A DNA stretch of 22,695 bases, from positions 1 to 22,695 of IMG/VR virus record IMGVR_UViG_3300024265_001305, one strand, 5' to 3'. The stretch comes from a virus. A program made the position numbers and the translations under genes. Numbering within the stretch: position 1 is the first letter of the stretch; the number at the start of each line of letters is the position of its first letter. The notes beneath the pieces are model-generated. The model had not been told where the DNA came from and did not search any database. It was given only the letters and a program-made list of their open reading frames with translations. This document shows, one piece after another, positions 3,929-21,508 of the stretch.

Positions 3929-4336
3929 ATGATCCTTGGACAGATTTTTCAGAGTTTAGAGTCGTGGCAAAAGTTGTCAGCAATCAACATGAATGCAGCG
4001 ATTGCTTACAAGATCCTCAAGTACACGAAGCTCGTCACTGATGAGTATGCCGTTATCGAAAAGCAGCGGGTTGCACTCATCCACGAGGCTGCCGGCACAG
4101 AAGACGGTGAAGAAGTTCGGCTTGAGTCCGGAACGCCAGAGTTTGAGTATTATGTTGAGAAATTCAACGCAGTGCTGGCGGTCGAGTCTGATCTCGCCGT
4201 GTCTTCTGTCGAATTCTCGGAAGTCGTGAATGCTGTCGATGAGAAGGACGAGTCGCTGTCTGTTCAGGACCTCGGGAAGCTGGAGCCGTTTTTTCTTAGC
4301 TCTGAAATAGATCCGCCGGCTGACTCGGATGCATAG
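3929..4336 (+). CDS. Small helical phage structural-region protein (DUF1617-like)
   Basis: A 135-residue acidic protein with a very good ribosome site (AAGGAGAAGAG just before ATG at 3929). It is predicted almost wholly helical at the N-terminus: a helix with SLESWQKLSAINMNAAIAYK, then KLVTDEYAVIEKQRVALIHE, followed by a Gly/Glu loop and an FEYYVEKFNAVLAVE helix, then an acidic tail. This layout (two long helices, a 'DEDG' loop, then 'F-x-x-x-x-N-x-x-L') matches small phage proteins such as DUF1617 members found between capsid and tail genes; the match is by pattern only. It lies between the terminator and the tail hub gene. Function is unknown; an assembly chaperone or connector component is possible. 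Confidence 0.6.
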   Translation: MILGQIFQSLESWQKLSAINMNAAIAYKILKYTKLVTDEYAVIEKQRVALIHEAAGTEDGEEVRLESGTPEFEYYVEKFNAVLAVESDLAVSSVEFSEVVNAVDEKDESLSVQDLGKLEPFFLSSEIDPPADSDA

Positions 4337-4338
4337 GG

Positions 4339-6675
4339 ATGGCCAGGAAACATAAGCTGATCGACATTAAGTTCCCCCTCGGTGGACTGAACCGCAGGGG
4401 GGCACATCGGCAGCAACCGCCCTACACCTCTCGCAACCTATCGAATGTGCGGCCGAAAGGCAATCTTCAGGGAAGGGAGCGAGGGGGCTCGCGCCCAGGT
4501 TTGATCGAGTCGCACCTCGACAGTCTGGGAGCGGCCGTTCGGTTGTTGGACCCCATGATTCTTGCGCTTGGTGACGGCTTCACATCTTGGTCGGATACGT
4601 TCGACGGGACAACGCTTGTCGCTGCGTGGACACAGGCCAGCTGGGCGGATGATGTTCCCAGTATTCTACCAACGGCACTGGCGAGTGTTGATACGTCTGT
4701 CAGCGAGGGTGAGGTTGTGCTCGACGCCTTGCCGATCGACACGTCTCAGCCTTATGTGGTGGAAATCTTCTTGACGCCTTGGAACGGCGAGTGGCACGGG
4801 GACTATCGGCTCTATTTCCGGCTGGATGATAGTAGCCCGGACGCGGAGACCGATGGCGTGGTTATCGAGTTGGTGCAGACAGGCAGTACAGGAGCTTATA
4901 CTGCGTCCCTTACGTCGCTTGTAAGTACCACGCCCTCAGTGATTGATACCGACTCCGGTACGATTGCTGTCCAGCCTGGGTGGCTGACGGCTACGATCTC
5001 AAGCACTACTGTGACGGTTTACTGGAATGGTACCCAGATACTCACGGGCGTTGTTGGTGCGCACGGTGGTGTACGAGTTGGCTTTGGCATGGAATGTACT
5101 ACGGAGTCGGGGATTTGTTTGGCGAACACGTTCCGTGTGCAGTATTATTCGACGGGTTCTGTTGATGCGCTTCGATCAATGCTCGTTGCCTCGGCCGGAG
5201 GTGACCTGTGGCGAGAGACTGCATATGGCCGGATGACTGTTATTACATCTGACCTGACGGTCCGCAGCGATGTTCCGCTTACATCGACGCAGAGCGGACA
5301 GAAGCTTTACATTGCGGACTACGGCGACACGCGCGACTCAGGGACTGATGGGGCAGTGTCAGGTTCGGTATTAGATGACGGAGGAGCGAATGACTGGTCA
5401 ACCCTTGGTATCGACCCCGACAGTGACGTATGCGTCATCTCAAACCCCACCGGAGCGACAGTTGCCGGAACCTACGGGATCGTGTCGGTCCACGCCACAA
5501 ACGGCGTCACCCTCGACAGCGCGCCTGGAGACGGAACTTGCGCTTACCGGATCGAGCGAGCCCCAAAGATTTACGACCCGCTGCTGAACACGATCACGAT
5601 CATGGCTGCGACGACCGGGCAGGTTCCGACCGGGAATCCGCTGATATGCCGCTATCTCGATCGAATTGTTATGGCCGGGGCCGAGATCGCCCCACACGTT
5701 TGGTACATGAGCCGACAAGGAGACTCACTTGATTGGGACTACTCGCAAGAAGACTCGCAACGCGCTGTCGCCGGAACTAGTAGCGAAGCTGGAGTACCTG
5801 GAACGGCTATCACCGCCCTCATCCCGCACAGCGACGATTATCTCATCATGGCATGCCGAAGCGAAATCTGGCGGCTTCGCGGTGACCCGGCCTTCGGCGG
5901 CCAGCTCGACTCGCTTAGCCAGGCGGTCGGGATTATTGGGCAGTCCGCATGGTGCCTTAATCCAGCCGGAGAGCTAGTTTTTCTGTCCCTGGATGGTATC
6001 TATGTACTGGCGCCCGGCGGCAGCACATATCCGAAGTCATTGTCAAGAGAAACGTTGCCTCGTGAGTTCCTGAATCTTGATCCGAATCTAGTCACGGCGT
6101 CCCTGGAATATGACATTCAGGGGCGGGGTGTTCATATCTACCTTACTCCCGATTCATACAACGCACGAACCCATTGGTGGCTTGACTGGGATCGCAAGAC
6201 GTTCTGGCCTGTGTCGCTTGATTCAGACTATGAACCGACTGCGACTTGTGCTGTTCAGGGTATTGTAATCGAAGATTCTGGTGTCATCCTCGGTGGTCGT
6301 GACGGGACGCTTCGCCGAATGAGTGAACTAGCTGAGTCAGATACTGGGACGGCCTTCTTGACGTATGCGGAGATTGGGCCGATTGCGTTGGGGAAAGACG
6401 GTAATACTGGATCGATTCTGACCATGTCTGGAGAGATTGCCATTGGAAGCGGCGATGTAACATGGACGACATATCCAGCACAAACATTTGAGGGAACAGA
6501 AACTGCTTCAGCTTCTGACACGGGGACCTTTGTTGCTGGCCTCAATGCCAGCGTTCGTCCTGGTTGCCGGGGGCAGGCGATGATGATTAAGCTGACTGGC
6601 GAAACTGCACGAAGCTGGAGCATCGAGCAGATTATAGCCACAGTAAAGCCCACCGGCCGACGGAGGCAGGCTTAA
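4339..6675 (+). CDS. Tail hub/nozzle-type virion protein
   Basis: A 778-residue protein. The N-terminal block FPLGGLNRRGAHRQQPPYT (residues 12-30), followed by NVRP and GRERGGSRPGL (to residue 55), is a recurring opening of large tail-stump proteins in short-tailed phages, where the chain begins by assembling against the connector. Residues about 79-272 look like an inserted LamG/concanavalin-type beta-sandwich (SDTFDG ... VVIELVQTG ... VTVYWNGTQI). The second half has blade-like repeats (RSEIWRLRGDP, GELVFLSLDGIYVL at about 545-558), suggesting a beta-propeller. The start is two bases after the previous stop with only a weak GGG ribosome site, so it probably relies on translational coupling. 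The stop overlaps the tail-fibre start (TAATG). Role as tail nozzle/hub is inferred from family pattern and position. Confidence 0.68.
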   Translation: MARKHKLIDIKFPLGGLNRRGAHRQQPPYTSRNLSNVRPKGNLQGRERGGSRPGLIESHLDSLGAAVRLLDPMILALGDGFTSWSDTFDGTTLVAAWTQASWADDVPSILPTALASVDTSVSEGEVVLDALPIDTSQPYVVEIFLTPWNGEWHGDYRLYFRLDDSSPDAETDGVVIELVQTGSTGAYTASLTSLVSTTPSVIDTDSGTIAVQPGWLTATISSTTVTVYWNGTQILTGVVGAHGGVRVGFGMECTTESGICLANTFRVQYYSTGSVDALRSMLVASAGGDLWRETAYGRMTVITSDLTVRSDVPLTSTQSGQKLYIADYGDTRDSGTDGAVSGSVLDDGGANDWSTLGIDPDSDVCVISNPTGATVAGTYGIVSVHATNGVTLDSAPGDGTCAYRIERAPKIYDPLLNTITIMAATTGQVPTGNPLICRYLDRIVMAGAEIAPHVWYMSRQGDSLDWDYSQEDSQRAVAGTSSEAGVPGTAITALIPHSDDYLIMACRSEIWRLRGDPAFGGQLDSLSQAVGIIGQSAWCLNPAGELVFLSLDGIYVLAPGGSTYPKSLSRETLPREFLNLDPNLVTASLEYDIQGRGVHIYLTPDSYNARTHWWLDWDRKTFWPVSLDSDYEPTATCAVQGIVIEDSGVILGGRDGTLRRMSELAESDTGTAFLTYAEIGPIALGKDGNTGSILTMSGEIAIGSGDVTWTTYPAQTFEGTETASASDTGTFVAGLNASVRPGCRGQAMMIKLTGETARSWSIEQIIATVKPTGRRRQA

Positions 6676-14184: not shown

Positions 14185-17100
14185 ATGGGCTGGAGAGACG
14201 GCGAGATCGTAGCTGGCACAGGGTCCTGGCAGGATGGTGAGCCCGTAAGAGTAGCGCCAAGTGGGCCTGGGTCCTGGCAAGGCGGCAGGATTGTGGAACC
14301 AGAACAGCCTGCACTTACTGAGGAGCAGAGGGAGCACTTCTTGCTGGCCGCCAAGAGAGAAGCGGCATTAGCTTCAGAATGGGAGAAGTCTAGTAAGTCG
14401 AATCTTCCAGGGTTTAGGTCCATGGCTATCCAGATGGGGGCAAACATTGCCTCGCCGGTTGCCAGGCTACTCGGTCAAGGTGAGCGAGCAGATCAACTGA
14501 ATCGGCTGGCAACTGCTGCCGGGCAAGTTCAGGAAGAAAGGGAAAAAGGCGGGCCGATCCCAGACTGGCTGCAACGAGCCGCAAGGGGTGCCGGCGTGTC
14601 GATTGGAACTGCCGGAGCGGCAGGCATGTTCACGGGTCCATACGGTATTATCGGATCATTCTCTGCACAAGAAGGCAATCGAGCTTGGACTGAAGGGAAA
14701 GATGCTGGGCTCAAGGGCAAGAAGCTTGCTGAGTATGTCCTGAAGCAGGCTACGATCGAAGCCGTGCCAGCGCTTGTCATGCAGAAGTTGGGGTTGGGTG
14801 GCTTTGAAAAGATACTTGGTGGAAAACAGGCTGCTTCCGCTGGCTTGAGAGAAGGCTTTAAGCGAGCTGGACTGAATCTTGCGACGGAACTTCCTGAGGA
14901 GTTAGTAACAGAGCTTGCGCATAATTTTGAGTCTGCGTTTTCAGGCGTTGATCCGAACGCAATGAGTGCCGAGAACATCCAGCAGACAGTCCTTGATACC
15001 GTTGCTCAGACCGTCCTTGCCATGGGCGCAGCCAGTGTGCCTAGCCTGGCAGCAGCACACAAAGAAGGGAAGGTTGGCAAGAAAGACAGAGCGAAGACTG
15101 CCCTTGTCGAGTCTGCTGAGTCCGGTGTGCCCATATCTCGTAAGCAGTGGCGAAAACTAGACCTTCCAGAGAACGAGGGTCGCAGTCAGGCCGATCGTTT
15201 AGAGGCCGCAAAAGGGGCTTCCGCAGAGATTAGAGCGGCCGAGGCGGCAGCAATAGAACAGCAGGTACAGCCTGGAGCTGTCGAGGAGCTCACACAGGAC
15301 CCCAGGCCCCCCCAGGAAGCCGCTCAGGCGACTCCGCAGGCAGAACCCGGCGAGCAGCCGGTCCAGCCTCCGGTGGCCCCAGAAGGCGGCTTGGGGGCCC
15401 CTCCAGTGCCGCCTGGTGAGACTGAGAGCCAGTCGTTCGAGGCCATGGTGGCCGCCTCGCCAGTACCCCCTCAAGAGTCGGCCCAGAGGAATCTTACCAA
15501 GCAGGTCTCCGCGGCTAAGCAGCCGATTGGCGAGGCGAAAGGTCTAGTCAAGGACGAGAATGGGAGCATCTCAGTCCCGGTCGAGACGTTCGCGAAGGCA
15601 TGGCGAGGGACAAAGACGCTGCTCAAGCGAGGTTTTGCCACAGGTGGACTGCTCCCAGAAGTCGTCCAGACAGTGAAACTACGGAAGGAGGGACAGCAGG
15701 CAAAGCTTTCGAGGCAGATCAGTGAAGCTCAAAGCGACTACAAGACCGCAGCAAAAGAGACTTATGGAACCAAGAATCCGTCAGCCGTACACACCGAAGA
15801 AATCAGCGATGTGCTTGGTGGCAGGTCTGACATCAGCACGCTTCCTGATTCCATGCAGGACTCAGTGGCTGCTATGCGATCTGGAATAGATGCCAGCTCT
15901 CGTGAGCTCATTCGATCCGGGGCCGTCCAGGGTGCGCTGGCGGCGATTGTCGCGAGGAATACTGGAGTCTATCTGACCAGAACGTTCAGGGCATTTTCTG
16001 ATCCGAAGTGGCCAAGCAAGGTTCCAGAGAAAGTGATGAACCGGGCGATTGCCCTGATACGGGCAGAGTATCCAGGCAAGACTGAGGCTGAAGTGCATGG
16101 GCTTATTGCGGCAATCCTTTATGAGGGCAAGGCGGCACAGACTCCGCTTGCCCTCATACGCAGGGCGTCGCTCGGTGCTAAGGATCTCGGCATCCTCAGG
16201 AAAAGAAATCTTGAGATACCGGAAGAGATCCTGGACTTGTTAGGCGAGAATCGTGATCCACTTGTGAATTACACACAGAGCATGGCGAAGATTGGTAGCC
16301 TGATCGCCAACCACAAATTCCTGACGGAAGTTCGCGAGGCCGGCTTGGCTGGTGGATTCTTCAGCGAGGTGCCGACGGTCAATGAGTTCGGTGAGATGAA
16401 GACTAAGATTGCTAAGGAAGGCACCGCGTCAATGGAGCCACTCAGTGGACTCTACACGACGCCTGAGATTGCAGATGCGTTCATGCGGGCAACCGACCCA
16501 AAGAAAATCGGGCCGATCCTGCGGGCGTACTACAGATTAAACGCGCTGGTCAAGACATCTAAGACCGTCTATTCGCCGCAGGCGATCGTTAGGAACTTCA
16601 TAGCCAACCCCCTGATCGCAATCAAGAACGGGCACATAGACCTCACCGGAGATTACCTCGGCCAGGCAAAAGACTTTTGGAAGGCGGTGAAGGCGACCGG
16701 GAAAGATATCACGCCAGACTGGGCGAAGCGTCTTTCTAATAGGGTTTTGCCACAATTTGTCAATAATCTCCTTGCTATGAATGAAAAGGAGTTCAGGGCA
16801 TATATGTCCCGGGCTGCCGAGGCCGGCGTGATTGGGCACGATGTTATTGTTGGTGAGTTAAAGGCAACGCTGAAAGACGCTGGGCTATTTGGTGCAGACG
16901 CAGACATCGCAGGGGCGGACGCGCAGAGGCGCGGAAAAACACTCGCAGCATTTAGGGTGGCTGGGAAACAAGCAGTCAGTATCTATCAGGCTGGCGACTC
17001 AGTGTGGAAGCTTTTCGGCTGGAACCGCGAGATGAAGGCGTACCACAAGGCATACCCGGACATGCCTCAGGCGGAACTTGAACAGGCAGCCGCCGACATA

Positions 17101-18294
17101 GTGACTGATGTATACCCGACATACTCTAAGACGTCTGAGTTCGTTGGCTTAATGCGTAAGAATATACTGACTGGATCGTTCGTCAGCTTTCCAGCCGAGA
17201 TAATTCGCACATCGTTCAACACCATGGAGCTGACCCGTAAGGAAATGACATCGGACAATCCAGAGGTACAGAAGATTGGGTATCGCAGGCTTACTGGCAT
17301 GATATCCGCTGCGACCATTTCGATTGGCGTGCCGATCATGTCAAGGTTTATTGCTGGAGTCTCAGCAGATGACGAAGACGACATGCGGAAGTTCATGCCA
17401 GAGTGGCAGAGGAACAGTCATGTTGTGCATCTTAGTAAATCTAAGGCCGGGAACAATCGCTATATTGATATGTCGTATGCTGACCCGCATTCTATAATTG
17501 TGAAACCATTGAAGGCATTTTTTGCCGGCGCAAAAGAAGACGACATCAAAGCAGCATTCGAGGAGAGCTTCCGAGAATTCTTTGACCCGTTCATCAGCGA
17601 AGAGATTCTCATCAAGGCCCTGTCCGAAGCATGGCGAAATTCCAAGGGAGCCAACGGACTGGATGTCTACAATAAGGAAGACACTACATTTCAAAAAGGA
17701 CTGACCATTGGACAGCATGTCGGCAGAGCATTCCTGCCCGGAGCAGCCGTTTCCGCAGAGAGGATCGGTCGCGGGATGGCCGGTAAAGTGGAGCGAACCG
17801 GCAAGGTTCGCGACCCAGCAATCGAGGCGATTTCTGTGGTGACGGGGCAACGGATTGAAGAGATGGACATTCGGCAGAATTTATCCTATATCTCCAGGAG
17901 CTTCAGCGGCAGCCTCCGAGACTCAGAAAGCATCTTTCGTAGCGTGGTCAATAATCGGGGGAGCGTTAGTGAGAGTTCGATCATCGCTGCGTATGAGCGG
18001 TCCGACAACGCACGCAGGGACGCATTTAAGGAGATGACTGAGGTTGCTAATGCTGCTGTGCGGCTCGGCGTACCAGCCGCAGAAGTGGTTACCATTATGA
18101 GGGAACAAGGGCTGACAAGCAATGATGTGGTGCGTGTGATGCGGGGGACATATGAACCATATCAGCCGACAAAAGCGAGGCTCAAGACGATGCAGCGGTA
18201 TAACCCCGGTGAATTTGCGGGGCGGCGTGAAGCCTGGGGCGCTGCATGGCAATCTGCCATCAATCCTGAGGCAGGCGAGCCGGCTGTACAGTAG
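14185..18294 (+). CDS. Very large internal virion (ejection) protein with LPD38-like region
   Basis: A 1369-residue protein with an AAAGGAAAAG ribosome site. The N-terminus has three short repeats, W-R-D-G, SWQDG and SWQGG (residues 3-6, 14-18, 30-34). A Gly/Ala-rich hydrophobic stretch (about 131-163, including GVSIGTAGAAGMFTGPYGII) could insert in membrane. A Pro/Gln/Glu-rich linker spans about 360-420. From about 450 on it is helical. Around residues 795-815, VYSPQAIVRNFIANPLIAIK resembles the 'P-x-x-x-x-R-N-x-x-x-x-P' core of LPD38-type domains of large polyvalent phage proteins, followed at about 993-1060 by NILTGSFVSFPAEIIR and a hydrophobic segment. Such proteins are carried in the head and ejected with DNA. 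I see no peptidase, transglycosylase or polymerase motif. Size and place match T7 gp16-like or N4-like last internal proteins, by analogy only. Confidence 0.68.
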   Translation: MGWRDGEIVAGTGSWQDGEPVRVAPSGPGSWQGGRIVEPEQPALTEEQREHFLLAAKREAALASEWEKSSKSNLPGFRSMAIQMGANIASPVARLLGQGERADQLNRLATAAGQVQEEREKGGPIPDWLQRAARGAGVSIGTAGAAGMFTGPYGIIGSFSAQEGNRAWTEGKDAGLKGKKLAEYVLKQATIEAVPALVMQKLGLGGFEKILGGKQAASAGLREGFKRAGLNLATELPEELVTELAHNFESAFSGVDPNAMSAENIQQTVLDTVAQTVLAMGAASVPSLAAAHKEGKVGKKDRAKTALVESAESGVPISRKQWRKLDLPENEGRSQADRLEAAKGASAEIRAAEAAAIEQQVQPGAVEELTQDPRPPQEAAQATPQAEPGEQPVQPPVAPEGGLGAPPVPPGETESQSFEAMVAASPVPPQESAQRNLTKQVSAAKQPIGEAKGLVKDENGSISVPVETFAKAWRGTKTLLKRGFATGGLLPEVVQTVKLRKEGQQAKLSRQISEAQSDYKTAAKETYGTKNPSAVHTEEISDVLGGRSDISTLPDSMQDSVAAMRSGIDASSRELIRSGAVQGALAAIVARNTGVYLTRTFRAFSDPKWPSKVPEKVMNRAIALIRAEYPGKTEAEVHGLIAAILYEGKAAQTPLALIRRASLGAKDLGILRKRNLEIPEEILDLLGENRDPLVNYTQSMAKIGSLIANHKFLTEVREAGLAGGFFSEVPTVNEFGEMKTKIAKEGTASMEPLSGLYTTPEIADAFMRATDPKKIGPILRAYYRLNALVKTSKTVYSPQAIVRNFIANPLIAIKNGHIDLTGDYLGQAKDFWKAVKATGKDITPDWAKRLSNRVLPQFVNNLLAMNEKEFRAYMSRAAEAGVIGHDVIVGELKATLKDAGLFGADADIAGADAQRRGKTLAAFRVAGKQAVSIYQAGDSVWKLFGWNREMKAYHKAYPDMPQAELEQAAADIVTDVYPTYSKTSEFVGLMRKNILTGSFVSFPAEIIRTSFNTMELTRKEMTSDNPEVQKIGYRRLTGMISAATISIGVPIMSRFIAGVSADDEDDMRKFMPEWQRNSHVVHLSKSKAGNNRYIDMSYADPHSIIVKPLKAFFAGAKEDDIKAAFEESFREFFDPFISEEILIKALSEAWRNSKGANGLDVYNKEDTTFQKGLTIGQHVGRAFLPGAAVSAERIGRGMAGKVERTGKVRDPAIEAISVVTGQRIEEMDIRQNLSYISRSFSGSLRDSESIFRSVVNNRGSVSESSIIAAYERSDNARRDAFKEMTEVANAAVRLGVPAAEVVTIMREQGLTSNDVVRVMRGTYEPYQPTKARLKTMQRYNPGEFAGRREAWGAAWQSAINPEAGEPAVQ

Positions 18295-18358: not shown

Positions 18359-18937
18359 ATGAAACCAGTCAATCTCTACGTCAAGCCAGGAGACATTATC
18401 GGCTTTAGCGGCAAGTCTCTGCGTAGCGATGCGATCAACATTGTAACTGGCGGCATTCCAAGATGGGGGATCAGTCATGTAGGAATTATTGGTGACCGTC
18501 ACGGCAGTAGGTATCTTTTTGAGGCCTCGGACAAATTGAACTGGTGTGAAATTCGTCACGAGATGTCCCGTGGCGTTCAGGCTCACCTCCTGGACGATGT
18601 ACTTGAAAGTTACAATGGTCGGGTATGGCACTACAGCCTTTATCGCAGGCTTTACCAACACGAGGATTTTCGGCTGTCTGCGTTCCTGCATGGATCGCTT
18701 GGCACGCCGTACGATCGAGCAGGCGCAATTCAGTCCGGCGGATTCCTATGGGGGCTTCTCAACTCGAAGCTGCGTGGCGAGTCGCTCACTGAAGATTTCT
18801 GTTCCGAGGTGTGTGCCGCCGCCGAGTCGCGCATCGGCATTTTTCCAACAACCAACGCAAGTCGTTGGAATCCTAACAAGCTGGTTCGTACAATGCGACG
18901 TGCCGGCCTCCTTCACCGTCCAATGAGGTTAAAATGA
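18359..18937 (+). CDS. Permuted NlpC/P60 (YiiX-like) papain-fold hydrolase, possible endolysin
   Basis: A 192-residue protein. It opens with KPGDIIGFSG (residues 9-18), then GISHVGII with His40, LFEAS with Glu55, and FCSEV with Cys148. This order, His before Cys, is the hallmark of circularly permuted NlpC/P60 papain-like enzymes (YiiX/YebB/DUF830 group), where the Cys is in a '[FY]CSE' motif. Such enzymes cleave amide bonds in peptidoglycan peptides or lipid/peptide substrates. There is no signal peptide and no separate cell-wall-binding domain. The start is 64 bases after the large internal protein, with a weak ribosome site, so a small untranslated gap separates the ejection genes from the envelope module. 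Its stop overlaps a small peptide gene (ATGA). It may be the endolysin, but a virion-associated or processing role is also possible. Confidence 0.72.
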   Translation: MKPVNLYVKPGDIIGFSGKSLRSDAINIVTGGIPRWGISHVGIIGDRHGSRYLFEASDKLNWCEIRHEMSRGVQAHLLDDVLESYNGRVWHYSLYRRLYQHEDFRLSAFLHGSLGTPYDRAGAIQSGGFLWGLLNSKLRGESLTEDFCSEVCAAAESRIGIFPTTNASRWNPNKLVRTMRRAGLLHRPMRLK

Positions 18938-19008
18938 GTAAAGTCAACTGTCTTGTTACTGCTATCGTCAAGTTTCTGAAAAGTCTGGCCTCGATCAAGA
19001 AATCGTAA
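18934..19008 (+). CDS. 24-residue cationic amphipathic peptide, translationally coupled
   Basis: A 24-codon reading frame starting in the stop of the hydrolase gene (ATGA, 18934-18937), with TGAGGTT at 18924-18930 as a good Shine-Dalgarno. The peptide has five Lys and no acidic residue. Its core, CLVTAIVKFLKSLAS, would form an amphipathic helix with hydrophobic V/I/F/L on one face and Lys on the other. Length and pattern resemble membrane-active peptides, but short phage frames are often missed or spurious, and no homologue is known to me. Genes on both sides act on the envelope, so a small lysis or membrane-modulating peptide is the natural hypothesis. Protein evidence is needed to confirm that it is made. 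Confidence 0.55.
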   Translation: MSKVNCLVTAIVKFLKSLASIKKS

Positions 19009-19051
19009 CCGGACGTTCCCAAGTTCTTTTCGTAAGAAGAGAGGAGACACT

Positions 19052-20155
19052 ATGAGTCTGAGACCAGTGAAACCAACATTTTGGGATTATGCTGTGGTTT
19101 TTTTGCTTCCAATAGTCATTGTATTTGCCATCACGTCCCTCGTGCTGTGGGCCACGTCTGCACCGGCCGCCATGGTGGATTGCATCAGCGCCACCTGCCG
19201 TGTGACATCTGTGGAAGGCGATAAAGTAACTGGCGTCGGCACCGGCTGTGTGTTTGAGATCAGCAACGGCAATGTGTTTGTGCTGACCAATGCCCATGTG
19301 GCCGACAGAGACAGAATGAAGGTGGAATTCTGGGAAGACGGACATTTGTCAAGGCCGCTTTATGGCAGCACTGTCATGCGCTCCGTTAGTCGGGATATTG
19401 CGGTCATTTCGATCGATGCTGCTGTCTTTGGACAGTCACTTCCGAACGTCATTCCAATAGCACCACTGAATACACAACTACACATCGGACAAACCATTAC
19501 CTCGGTTGGCTGTGCAAACAGTGCGTGGGCGACGGCGTTTAAGGGGCACATACGTAACCCTGTTGATGATGTGGGTGGCTTGATTGCGTTCGATCCAACG
19601 CCTGCGCTGGGCCGCAGTGGATCGGCAATCTTCGATGAAGATGGTAAACACATCGTAGCATTGTTGCGAGCTCAGAGGCTGGAATACAAGGACGGCCCTC
19701 CGATCTACGGCCTTGCCGTGAGCATCCGAGACATCTGGGCTTCGCTGTATGGCGACATGGTGGACACAGGTCGCACCATAAAGGATCGCGAGACCTTTTG
19801 GCCCCCGGCCATTCAGGAGCAAGTCCCGGTGCAGTGTGGGCCAAGGGGCTGTCCAACGCCGGGAGGGTCGGGGCAGCGTGTCCTGCCGTACCGACAGCGA
19901 CAGGACGACATCGATCGCCGTCAAGACAGGCGGATTGATGATCTGTATCCGACCAAGCCATTCGAGGTTCCGAAGCTTGAGGTGGAGCCTCCGGCGGACG
20001 GAGGGAATGTTCACGAGTCGGCCCCGCCGCCTCCGGTCGTCAAAGAGCGTGGGCCACCTATCGGCTTCATTGTCGGATTCCTGCTACTTGCGGCTGGTGT
20101 TGGTATGGTACTCGGCCTCGCTGTTCAGTGGAAGGCAACCTATCCGAAGTTGTAA
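19052..20155 (+). CDS. Membrane-anchored trypsin-like serine protease
   Basis: A 367-residue protein with GAGGAG at 19041-19046. An N-terminal membrane helix (about residues 14-34) is followed by a chymotrypsin-fold protease: GTGCVFEISNG then VLTNAHVAD with His82, RDIAVISID with Asp115, and GRSGSAIF with Ser189. This gives a complete S1-type triad in the usual order. After the protease comes a Pro/Arg-rich linker (CGPRGC around residues 267-272, RQRQDDIDRRQDRRIDD), and a second membrane helix (about 337-361) near the C-terminus. It is predicted to sit in the inner membrane with the protease domain outside (periplasm), consistent with the basic RPVK before the first helix. Phage serine proteases more often act in capsid maturation and lack membrane segments; here location and topology argue for envelope action. 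Substrate unknown. Confidence 0.8.
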   Translation: MSLRPVKPTFWDYAVVFLLPIVIVFAITSLVLWATSAPAAMVDCISATCRVTSVEGDKVTGVGTGCVFEISNGNVFVLTNAHVADRDRMKVEFWEDGHLSRPLYGSTVMRSVSRDIAVISIDAAVFGQSLPNVIPIAPLNTQLHIGQTITSVGCANSAWATAFKGHIRNPVDDVGGLIAFDPTPALGRSGSAIFDEDGKHIVALLRAQRLEYKDGPPIYGLAVSIRDIWASLYGDMVDTGRTIKDRETFWPPAIQEQVPVQCGPRGCPTPGGSGQRVLPYRQRQDDIDRRQDRRIDDLYPTKPFEVPKLEVEPPADGGNVHESAPPPPVVKERGPPIGFIVGFLLLAAGVGMVLGLAVQWKATYPKL

Positions 20156-20171
20156 CGAAGGAGGGATGCAC

Positions 20172-20315
20172 ATGGAGAGTCATGCTATCAGTATCGTTCT
20201 GTGGTGTCTTCTGGGGGTATTTGCTCTTGCATTCGTCTTGCATGTGATGATGCTGATTGACTGCATCAGATACAAGGTCAAGAAGCCAACCTCCAGGCGA
20301 TCAAAGCGTTCGTAA
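20172..20315 (+). CDS. Small single-span membrane protein (47 aa)
   Basis: A 47-residue protein with one hydrophobic helix (IVLWCLLGVFALAFVLHVMML) and a strongly basic C-terminus (KVKKPTSRRSKRS), giving the N-out/C-in orientation by the positive-inside rule. An upstream in-frame ATG at 20166 is only one base from the AAGGAGG box (20158-20164), whereas ATG at 20172 has a normal spacing, so I chose the latter. The gene sits between the protease gene and another membrane protein, 16 bases after the former. It could be a small holin, an antiholin or a partner of the protease. No family is recognised; the call is only of topology. Confidence 0.65.
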   Translation: MESHAISIVLWCLLGVFALAFVLHVMMLIDCIRYKVKKPTSRRSKRS

Positions 20316-20360
20316 GCTCAGTTTTTCTATCAATGAGAAAGTAACGAAAGAGAGTTCATT

Positions 20361-20753
20361 ATGGTCAGTCTCGTTATCAATGTTGTTCTCGGAGCCCTTG
20401 TGCTCGGAGCGGCCTGCTACTATGTCGTTCGTTGGATGTTTCGCAAGGATACGGAGATCGAAGATCGTCGCCGAGCTGCGGCCGAGCTTGCTGGCGTACT
20501 GTCTGGTCTTGGGCTGCGGAAGATCCCGGACTTCCTGATCGACTACAGCGTCGGTGACTACAGCGGCATGGGGAAGAAGATCGCAGACCTGGCGCGACTT
20601 TTCTTGTCGGGTGAAGCCGCCGTGCTCGAAGAATTCAAGGAGGCATTCGGTAGAGTGCTCGATGCCAAGCTGAAGACCCCTGAGGGCCGGGCGTACATCC
20701 GTGTCAAGCTGGAAGACTCCGATACGGCAGACCCTAGCCCCGTCGCGAAATAA
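20361..20753 (+). CDS. Membrane-anchored hypothetical protein with SVGDYSGM motif
   Basis: A 130-residue protein with an N-terminal membrane helix (about residues 4-23: LVINVVLGALVLGAACYYVV), then basic residues (RWMFRK) and a cytoplasmic-type soluble domain. The latter contains a helix EDRRRAAAELAGVLSGLG, then FLIDYSVGDYSGMGKKIADLARLF, and EEFKEAFGRVLDAKLKTPEGRAYIRVKL. The 'Y-x-V-G-D-Y-S-G-M' stretch looks well conserved by design but I cannot name the family. The ribosome site is purine-rich (AAAGAGAG near 20347-20354). It is the last gene before the 20784-20827 terminator. A holin-like or envelope-complex role is possible from context only. Confidence 0.65.
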   Translation: MVSLVINVVLGALVLGAACYYVVRWMFRKDTEIEDRRRAAAELAGVLSGLGLRKIPDFLIDYSVGDYSGMGKKIADLARLFLSGEAAVLEEFKEAFGRVLDAKLKTPEGRAYIRVKLEDSDTADPSPVAK

Positions 20754-20783
20754 CCACCCCCAGGGCAAGAAGAAGGCCTCGCT

Positions 20784-20827
20784 GACCAGCCGGGGCAACC
20801 TACCAGAGCCCTCGGCTGGTCGTTTTT
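20784..20827 (+). terminator. Intrinsic terminator inside the envelope module
   Basis: A 9-bp stem (GACCAGCCG 20784-20792 with CGGCTGGTC 20813-20821), extendable by GGG/CCC inside the loop, followed by TTTTT at 20823-20827. As with the terminator at 3875-3910, the next gene begins too soon (20850) for a promoter between them. Confidence 0.85.
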
Positions 20828-20849
20828 ATAGAAAAGAAGAAAGGAAGAC

Positions 20850-21212
20850 ATGAAAGAAGAACACTTTGGTCTCGCTGTTGGTTTCTTGCTCCTTGCGGTG
20901 ACCATTTTGTGCGCGTGCATGGCTGGTTGCTCGCATCAAATGGGGCCCGACACTTATGATTATTCCATGTATACCGTGGTCGCATACATGGACGATCAAT
21001 GCGACCCGTGCCAAGAGGTAAAGCAGTCCCTTGAGCTCCTTGAGGCGGCTGGAGCTCGGGTCATCATTGTTGATGTCCATGAGGACCCACGCAAAGCAGA
21101 AATATGGGGCGTCACGGACGTTCCAACTTTTTTCATTTCCTCACCTCACAGTGACACGATCCGCACGTACACCATTGAAACGGTCTTGGCCGTGTGCGGG
21201 GGCTACTTGTGA
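20850..21212 (+). CDS. Thioredoxin-fold lipoprotein (CxxC)
   Basis: A 120-residue protein with AAGGAAG at 20841-20847. The first 26 residues form a signal peptide ending in a lipobox-like M-A-G-C (Cys27), so a lipid-anchored, exported protein is predicted; methionine at the -3 position is less usual. The rest is a small thioredoxin fold: TVVAYMDDQCDPCQEVK with the redox pair Cys51-x-x-Cys54, a helix SLELLEAAG, strand VIIVDV, then WGVTDVPTFFI with the cis-proline Pro92. The acidic CDPC pair differs from CGPC of thioredoxin. Such enzymes reduce or form disulfides in the envelope. The 3' end overlaps the next start (GTGA). Its substrate may be another phage envelope protein, or a host one; unknown. 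Confidence 0.78.
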   Translation: MKEEHFGLAVGFLLLAVTILCACMAGCSHQMGPDTYDYSMYTVVAYMDDQCDPCQEVKQSLELLEAAGARVIIVDVHEDPRKAEIWGVTDVPTFFISSPHSDTIRTYTIETVLAVCGGYL

Positions 21213-21508
21213 GACTAGCGGCCTGCGGCATCTTCGGCAGCGTCATTGCGATGGGGTCAGCCGACGCTCTGAGCGGCCCGATCATCGTTCAGTATGGAGC
21301 ACTAGCTATACTGGGTGGGGCGGTCCTGTATCTCCTCAAATACGCCATTCCATCCATCCTGAAGGCACAGAAGGATGAGCGGACGGCGCTTCTTGCCGAT
21401 CAGGAACGAGCCAGACACGATTTCTGTGAAGCCCTCGCCGGGGTGTCGAGATCAGTTGACAACATGGCAATTGTCATATCTGGGGCCCGGCGATCAGTAG
21501 GCCCATAG
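21209..21508 (+). CDS. Holin-like small membrane protein with C-terminal helix
   Basis: About 99 residues from the GTG at 21209 that overlaps the previous TGA; a GTG at 21194 is also in frame, but has no better ribosome site. A hydrophobic N-terminal segment (LAACGIFGSVIAMG) and a clear membrane helix (YGALAILGGAVLYLLKYAI) are followed by a charged amphipathic helix (KAQKDERTALLADQERARHD) and a final segment VSRSVDNMAIVI. One or two membrane spans followed by a basic/acidic coiled helix is the general shape of small holins and of BhlA/UviB-like proteins, but no diagnostic motif is present. It is the last gene on this strand before a convergent terminator, a common place for lysis genes. Holin is therefore a hypothesis. 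Confidence 0.55.
   Translation: MRLAACGIFGSVIAMGSADALSGPIIVQYGALAILGGAVLYLLKYAIPSILKAQKDERTALLADQERARHDFCEALAGVSRSVDNMAIVISGARRSVGP

Follow-up and report, generated by a model that had tools for sequence, protein, structure and literature searches.

A phage gene module that pairs a predicted envelope protease with a thioredoxin-fold protein, and its possible part in release from planctomycetes

The IMG/VR virus record IMGVR_UViG_3300024265_001305 is 22,695 bases long, and the whole of it is called the window here. Seven open reading frames (ORFs), A to G, occupy positions 18359-21508 on its + strand, downstream of a 1369-amino-acid (aa) ejection-type virion protein (14185..18294, + strand; phrog_22602 virion structural protein, E value 9.4e-41), an upstream neighbor that lies outside the module described below. 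A first-pass annotation had read them as seven consecutive genes after the ejection proteins, all aimed at the cell envelope, and had proposed an alternative lysis machine or a superinfection or envelope-remodelling module; all seven ORFs were found in that arrangement, and genes on the minus strand lie beyond them. Proteins identical to A and C are also encoded in G002 (49,427 bases) and G001 (26,679 bases), which are the same phage, and other phages encode relatives of A, C, E, F, and G. Related loci were collected from IMG/VR with A and with profiles of A, E, and a C39-like relative; the resulting 200 loci, which include the window and cellular loci, fell into 124 clusters by shared 25-mers, of which 99 were viral, and the cellular-genome loci L090-L117 were kept out of the viral counts. 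Profiles from first alignments were run over all ORFs of the loci, and the family alignments used part of each family's members (59, 72, 55, and 47 sequences). Searches of 50,697 phage records with the right half of the window (megablast) and with A, one E, and two C39 proteins (tblastn) gave no match.

ORF A (18359..18937, + strand; 192 aa) is predicted to be a permuted NlpC/P60 cysteine enzyme of the C92/YiiX-like type. The A1 profile matches the permuted cysteine peptidase 3kw0 (E value 2.1e-4), in agreement with the permuted papain-fold hydrolase proposed earlier, and A also matches phrog_1128 (E value 5.1e-7). The window's A has no Pfam match of its own at an E value of 1; Peptidase_C92 was matched by 2 of 63 scanned module-family proteins (best E value 6.3e-5), the window's A not among them. 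Across 11 sequences, H40, Y118, and C148 are invariant and E55 is kept in at least 90%; they correspond to His49, Tyr127, Cys154, and Glu64 of BcPPNE (PMC3142127). The His of A precedes its Cys and is accompanied by the Glu and the Tyr, which together with the superfamily similarity marks a permuted NlpC/P60 enzyme; A thus shares the His-Glu-Tyr-Cys residues and the permuted order with YiiX, BcPPNE (3kw0), and Tox-Act1, but forms a phage family of its own, known from sequence. The permuted enzymes closest to A have hydrophobic pockets, and lipid-linked substrates were inferred for BcPPNE and YiiX by their authors (PMC3142127); Tox-Act1, another permuted member, is a phospholipase (PMC12994826). 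Because lipids are the known or presumed targets of those YiiX-like relatives that have been studied, A is probably a lipid-acting enzyme rather than a peptidoglycan endolysin, and the endolysin assignment was marked down on the evidence of these two papers. An N-terminal hydrophobic stretch occurs in just 2 of 62 A proteins. The phrog_1128 label, "enoyl-CoA hydratase/carnithine racemase-like," looks wrong for this permuted papain-like family; 13 of the 63 scanned proteins match it, and the scanned set contained 13 A proteins.

The end of A is overlapped by B (18934..19008, + strand), a cationic 24-aa ORF read from the sequence as a putative gene. C (19052..20155, + strand; 367 aa) is a trypsin-like serine protease, apparently anchored in the membrane by N- and C-terminal transmembrane (TM) segments, with its catalytic domain predicted to lie outside the inner membrane. 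Its Trypsin_2 domain scores 43.2 bits against a cut-off of 27.6 (E value 8.5e-11), and the motifs TNAHV, SRDIAV, and GRSGSA, which start at residues 79, 113, and 187, give a triad read as H82/D115/S189; a domain score above the cut-off and a His-Asp-Ser triad together identify a trypsin-like enzyme. The periplasm-facing serine protease of the first-pass annotation therefore stands, its location being a prediction. C resembles the HtrA/DegP-type proteases in its Trypsin_2 domain, catalytic triad, and predicted extracytoplasmic position; unlike them, it has no PDZ match in Pfam and ends in an LPxR-linker-TM tail, and its relatives may carry a fused thioredoxin.

D (20172..20315, + strand) is a 47-aa protein with a single TM segment (residues 5-23) and a basic C-terminal tail; phmmer found relatives only at loci of the window's own phage. 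Since D matches its own phage only and B is too short to test, neither has independent support, and both appear not to be conserved. E (20361..20753, + strand) is a core member of the module, predicted to be an inner-membrane helical protein: the AlphaFold2 model (predicted local distance difference test score, pLDDT, 95) has one N-terminal TM segment and an all-helical domain, for which Foldseek found nothing significant in the PDB. The charges of E suggest that this domain faces the cytosol, and for that reason a spanin pair formed by F and E was marked down. Both of the small membrane proteins noted earlier thus have a TM segment, but D is not conserved.

F (20850..21212, + strand) is predicted to be an exported thioredoxin-fold lipoprotein, with a lipoprotein-type start and a CDPC active site, as first described. 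In the window it matches Pfam Thioredoxin with an E value of 2.8e-4 and 21.3 bits, under the cut-off of 23.5; the family profile matches PDB thioredoxins, and the CxxC motif and cis-Pro are invariant in 47 aligned sequences including the window's, which identifies a thioredoxin at the level of the family. CxxC is present in 50 of 51 called F genes and a lipobox in 39 of 51. In two clusters lacking F (L048 and L052), a 65-70-aa membrane protein with a Cys-rich tail occupies its place, between E and the relative of G.

G (21209..21508, + strand; GTG start) is a small membrane protein and a holin candidate. The label "holin-like" was based on size and one TM segment; G is indeed a small membrane protein, but no Pfam or PHROG family matched it below an E value of 0.1. 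Relatives occur in 8 further clusters (phmmer E values 4e-15 to 4e-4), adjoining the end of F in L045, L059, L214, L013, and L055 and following E, with no F detected, in L048, L052, and L064. A recurrent 87-98-aa protein with a polar N-terminal part and a C-terminal TM segment sits at the place of G downstream of E or F in L012, L014, L120, L126, L175, and L176, and makes a second class of holin candidate. The export or anchor signals predicted in C and F and the membrane segments in D, E, and G agree with an envelope-directed cluster; for A, which has no signal peptide, an envelope target is something that we infer.

A, a protease unit predicted to be exported, E, and usually F form a module common to many phages. 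Its common protease unit is a C39-like peptidase together with a membrane-anchored partner, TrxTM, a working label and not a claim that the partner is a thioredoxin. A, C39, TrxTM, and E lie on one locus and one strand in 59 of the 99 viral clusters, with the same order in all 59, and F follows E in 41 of these; the genes are not scattered in relatives. As the loci were collected with these same queries, the fair measure is a count per query among clusters with enough flank, those without the required flank being dropped. Clusters found with C39 contain A, E, and TrxTM in 30 of 30 cases and F in 24. Among 28 clusters found with E, 24 have A and 25 have C39 with TrxTM; the remaining three (the window's, L120, and L175) carry a trypsin-like protease just before E. 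Clusters found with A have E in 31 of 47 cases and C39 in 30, and 14 of the 47, without other module genes, hold distant A-like genes (13 of them with 26-32% identity, and L015 with 39%). E was detected in 83 of the 99 viral clusters, a figure biased by its use as a query. ORFs resembling HNH or endonuclease VII genes lie between module genes in L008 (5001-5561 and 6084-6524) and L011 (12031-12522), as judged by eye; they resemble homing endonucleases, the module order is otherwise unchanged, and Endonuclease_7 matched 3 of 57 proteins from G005 and G011. In L010 a 502-aa protein with an N-terminal hydrophobic stretch (4250-5758) stands between A and the C39-like gene.

The C39-like protein was modeled with a pLDDT of 90, and its best Foldseek matches were 3erv (E value 3.3e-4) followed by the peptidase domains of PCAT1 and ComA. 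C86 and H161 are invariant in 59 sequences, so these relatives, of which the window has none, combine a papain-like C39 fold with a Cys and a His. The phage proteins share their fold with those peptidases and differ in being stand-alone, apparently exported, and often provided with a lipobox: 53 of 57 have an N-terminal hydrophobic stretch and 36 of 57 the lipobox pattern. The C39, TrxTM, and E families gave few and weak matches in a Pfam scan, apparently of low complexity; the C39-like proteins had no match to a C39 family of Pfam at an E value of 0.01.

The window carries a variant of this arrangement, in which a trypsin-like protease is found instead of C39 and TrxTM and D lies between C and E. 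The tail of C resembles that of the missing partner, with an LPWR/LPYR motif, a proline-rich linker, a TM segment, and a QWKxxY end. A hidden Markov model (HMM) made from 41 TrxTM tails only was run over 29,051 ORFs; outside clear TrxTM proteins it matched the proteases of L126 (E value 2.9e-11), L120 (8.9e-6), and the window (1.2e-4), and weakly that of L175 (0.066), and the remaining hits were the truncated L143 (7.4e-7), a divergent copy of TrxTM in L049 (0.0011), and an ORF from a cellular locus (0.062). Judging from the shared C-terminal tail, it seems that a serine protease has replaced the cysteine peptidase together with its partner's outer domain, and the exchange of protease types argues that their common task is proteolysis outside the membrane. 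A tree of A with 61 rows, of which 4 have trypsin, did not show independent origins of the swap: it needs 3 state changes, only 1 of them forced by well-supported branches, and a count as low came from 44 of 500 label shuffles. Of the A-like rows that lack both module and trypsin, the tree includes L015 alone. Both types of protease can also share a locus: a separate trypsin-like gene stands beside an intact C39 unit in 9 clusters (L013, L014, L048, L052, L055, L059, L060, L061, and L214).

A third form of the protease unit joins it to a thioredoxin. In L176, thioredoxin and trypsin share one reading frame, with the thioredoxin at residues 30-116 (PDB match, E value 1.1e-15) and a protease 43% identical to that of L175. 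Among the best 80 of 142 relatives, eight contigs carry such a fusion (L252, which is the contig of L176, L253, L254, L255, L256, L257, L259, and L271); any two of them have at most 10% of their 25-mers in common, although L253 and L256, from one sample, are close in protein. Each of the 8 contains CxxC and GDSG motifs, and its protease is followed by a TM segment; 6 of 8 (not L257 or L271) have an LPWR/LPYR-type motif. E is the next gene in five (L252, L253, L254, L256, and L257) and was not detected in L255, L259, and L271. In L258, L260 (from the contig of L175), L261, L264, L265, and L267 (from that of L120), E is directly preceded by a trypsin without detected thioredoxin, and in L262 by a truncated one. 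The unit thus exists in exchangeable forms: C39 with its partner, trypsin-TM, and thioredoxin-trypsin-TM. The fusion implies that redox and proteolysis very likely act together, as the first-pass annotation had supposed in grouping the protease with the redox protein, and it is the strongest sign that F and C may work on the same substrates. The coupling of protease and redox function is well supported, as is the predicted export of the protease unit and the thioredoxin, both of which carry recognizable export or anchor signals. Upstream of the trypsin-E variants in L175 (6114-6794) and L176 (1481-2086) lies a very divergent permuted NlpC/P60-like ORF, recognized by eye from a His in ASHAG/THAG and a Cys in FCSQ, which apparently stands in for A.

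The neighborhood of terminase and ejection genes is a usual place of lysis genes. A terminase lies within 7 kb downstream of the module in 40 of 64 clusters, an ejection gene lies upstream in 16, and neither was found in 8; the count omits clusters having neither 7 kb of flank nor a match. Overall, the module adjoins terminase or ejection genes, on their strand, in 56 of 64 clusters.

Standard lysis genes were sought in several of these phages. Among 57 proteins encoded outside the module in G002 and at the window's left end, no peptidoglycan hydrolase was found with Pfam (complete at an E value of 0.01) or among PHROG families, where 25 of 32 families were listed for one half of the proteins; no peptidoglycan-hydrolase family was found in the window's cluster either (Pfam, PHROG). 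In G005 and G011, the 19 families matched by 57 of the 63 non-module proteins of 100-420 aa comprised no peptidoglycan hydrolase; they did include a Clp protease and another Trypsin_2. Two prophages, scanned apart from piece-end and module proteins, had no peptidoglycan hydrolase among 25 of 34 families (G013, 62 proteins of 90-450 aa) and 25 of 31 families (G403, 39 proteins of 60-800 aa). The prophage of G013 (contig C1, 12-92 kb; L229-L233) also carries a 5-hmdU DNA kinase domain, matches to AbiEii and AbiEi, and two ParB-like genes, which hint at modified DNA and defense genes. Amidase_2 was absent from 30 of 30 records and phage lysozyme from 29 of 29, many of them fragments. No spanin family was among the matches listed, spanins being too diverse for a missing match to decide. 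A separate standard endolysin, holin, and spanin set, which would have told against the cluster as a lysis unit, was thus not seen among the relatives' proteins scanned, some scans covering the families listed and part of the proteins.

The relatives point to hosts among the Planctomycetota. A profile of A run over 84,980 species genomes gave 28 loci, only two of them close (53% and 50%); these two, in metagenome-assembled genomes labeled Planctomycetota and Pirellulales, each carry A, C39, TrxTM, E, and F. The first seems, by eye, to belong to a prophage that occupies about 12-92 kb of a contig of 444 kb; past it, the genes are ordinary chromosomal ones. A C39 profile, with the best 8 candidates scored per genome, matched 6 of 392 Planctomycetota genomes, a scan that served as positive control: five matches were strong, including two on chromosome-sized contigs (7.7 and 7.0 Mb), and one was marginal, with two stops. 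The smaller profile A4 matched the same five strong genomes. C39 was found in 0 of 378 genomes of a control phylum (that of a Kordiimonas genome; again with 8 candidates scored per genome) and in 0 of 23 genomes having distant A-like genes.

YTV, a domain that occurs in Cys-rich wall proteins of planctomycetes, is a marker of Cys-rich protein walls (PMC3035269, PMC8567305, PMC10632474). Cys-rich YTV proteins were found in wall preparations, and most Planctomycetales have no peptidoglycan genes (PMC8567305); in P. limnophila most peptidoglycan-synthesis genes are non-essential and one YTV protein belongs to the essential set (PMC10632474). YTV was present in 42 of the 392 Planctomycetota genomes and in 0 of 14 control genomes, and all 6 C39 genomes are among the 42 (hypergeometric p of 1.1e-5 for the five strong ones); G014, from outside the 392-genome sample, has YTV too. 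YTV-bearing Planctomycetota genomes thus contain phage regions with the C39 unit. A search of the open-licence literature, with partial coverage, found few described planctomycete phages and nothing on this module in connection with their lysis.

Taken together, these results suggest that the module probably acts on envelope proteins through coupled redox and proteolytic steps. That its purpose is lysis has about an even chance of being correct, and the same holds for the fuller proposal that it digests host-envelope proteins by coupled disulfide reduction and proteolysis, late in infection, and so releases progeny from planctomycetes with disulfide-rich walls. The main argument for lysis is that the module adjoins terminase or ejection genes, a location that favors lysis over superinfection control or envelope remodelling, with lysis itself being our inference. 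We suggest tentatively, as a possibility falling somewhat short of even, that tailed phages of the Planctomycetota exit not through the dissolution of peptidoglycan alone but by reductive proteolysis, in which a membrane-tethered protease and a thioredoxin, in some phages a single polypeptide, would dismantle a wall of disulfide-linked protein with the aid of a lipid-acting enzyme, in a manner distinct from endolysin-based lysis. The alternative lysis machine of the first-pass annotation survives in part, as a proposed reductive-proteolytic module, but A is probably no endolysin, B and D are not conserved, and the window's protease is a variant.

Under this proposal, the protease unit would be stationed late in infection at the outer surface of the inner membrane, and the thioredoxin lipoprotein would occupy the periplasm. 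Disulfides of envelope proteins would be reduced by F, or by the thioredoxin half of the fusion, and the chains thereby opened to C, which would be held in the inner membrane beside E by its LPxR-TM tail. In the cytosol, A would attack membrane lipids or lipoproteins, and G (or E) would make the inner membrane fail; the combined steps would replace the usual endolysin and spanin steps. Like the holin-endolysin-spanin cassettes of lambda and T7, the module lies beside terminase or ejection genes and includes small membrane proteins, a lipoprotein, and an envelope protein anchored in the inner membrane; unlike them, it has no detected endolysin, holin, or spanin family and has a protease and a thioredoxin instead. 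Reduction followed by cutting is also the principle of microbial keratin digestion, in which a lipid layer is removed and a disulfide reductase acts with proteases including S1 (PMC10655438); those enzymes are secreted by saprophytes for food and are not a phage module, so the likeness is an analogy only.

The same chemistry could serve without lysis, in remodelling the envelope of an infected or lysogenic cell, for example to block superinfection or to allow non-lytic release. Membrane-tethered proteases and a lipoprotein thioredoxin would suit slow, local remodelling, the C39 unit lies in phage regions of planctomycete genomes, and release of a planctomycete phage without lysis is reported (PMC10945688); we nevertheless consider this explanation rather unlikely, given the position of the module beside terminase or ejection genes, on their strand, in 56 of 64 clusters, and that no other lysis genes were seen in the proteins scanned. 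A peptidoglycan lysis cassette, in which either A or the C39-like enzyme serves as a papain-fold endolysin, with protease and thioredoxin as accessories, is less probable still. Some peptidoglycan amidases do have papain-like folds, PeiR and Ly7917 appear among the low-ranked and non-significant fold matches of C39 (E value about 0.1), and the hosts keep MurB; however, C39 is swapped for a serine protease, and we know of no serine protease that cuts peptidoglycan. The best matches of C39 are, moreover, a C39-like peptidase and leader-peptide proteases, and the closest structures to A are permuted enzymes with hydrophobic pockets (PMC3142127). A DegP-like role, in which the phage would process or quality-control virion or exported proteins of its own rather than attack the host, is very unlikely: Trypsin_2 is a domain of HtrA/DegP-type proteases and some copies stand amid head genes (L242 and L244, by eye), but tailed-phage virions assemble in the cytosol, and nothing like a conserved, exported substrate of phage origin was noticed next to the module, no systematic search having been made.

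Several observations weigh against release by reductive proteolysis. All six hosts that were checked (G013, G014, G347, G371, G395, and G403) have MurB_C, and peptidoglycan has been detected in Planctomycetia (PMC10632474), so peptidoglycan may still be a barrier; the hosts with C39 are not those that lost peptidoglycan genes. Phylogeny and the quality of genomes and assemblies confound the link with YTV, and the window's own host is suggested by its relatives. As for the redox component, no F was detected in 6 of the 30 C39-query clusters, and CxxC (residues 26-160) is absent in 61 of 61 viral TrxTM copies; a set of 55 TrxTM sequences showed no similarity to the F profile; only the prophage copies in L242 and L244, both without Pfam match, carry CxxC, and these align weakly with F (46% probability). 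The C39-TrxTM pair of L242 and L244 lies, as judged by eye, amid head genes, and C39 and TrxTM occur without detected A in the planctomycete stretches L239, L241, L242, L243, and L244. A has no export signal, and neither of the small membrane proteins G and E matches a holin family. The tail of the window's protease scored 24.3 bits against 20.8 for the best of 5000 shuffles, a modest margin. Finally, genes were called with a custom gene caller, G002 is not closed and its scan excludes genes under 40 aa and the gap, and the case for lysis is drawn from position and from standard lysis genes not having been seen.

Even without the claim of lysis, a conserved module is defined, of which C39, TrxTM, and E have no convincing Pfam match, and the thioredoxin-trypsin fusion is a single polypeptide suited to expression and assay. 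The module may help to link environmental phages to planctomycete hosts. If release by reductive proteolysis is correct, phage exit in these bacteria would be aimed at protein and not at peptidoglycan, which would bear on the long-running dispute over the load-bearing layer of planctomycetes.

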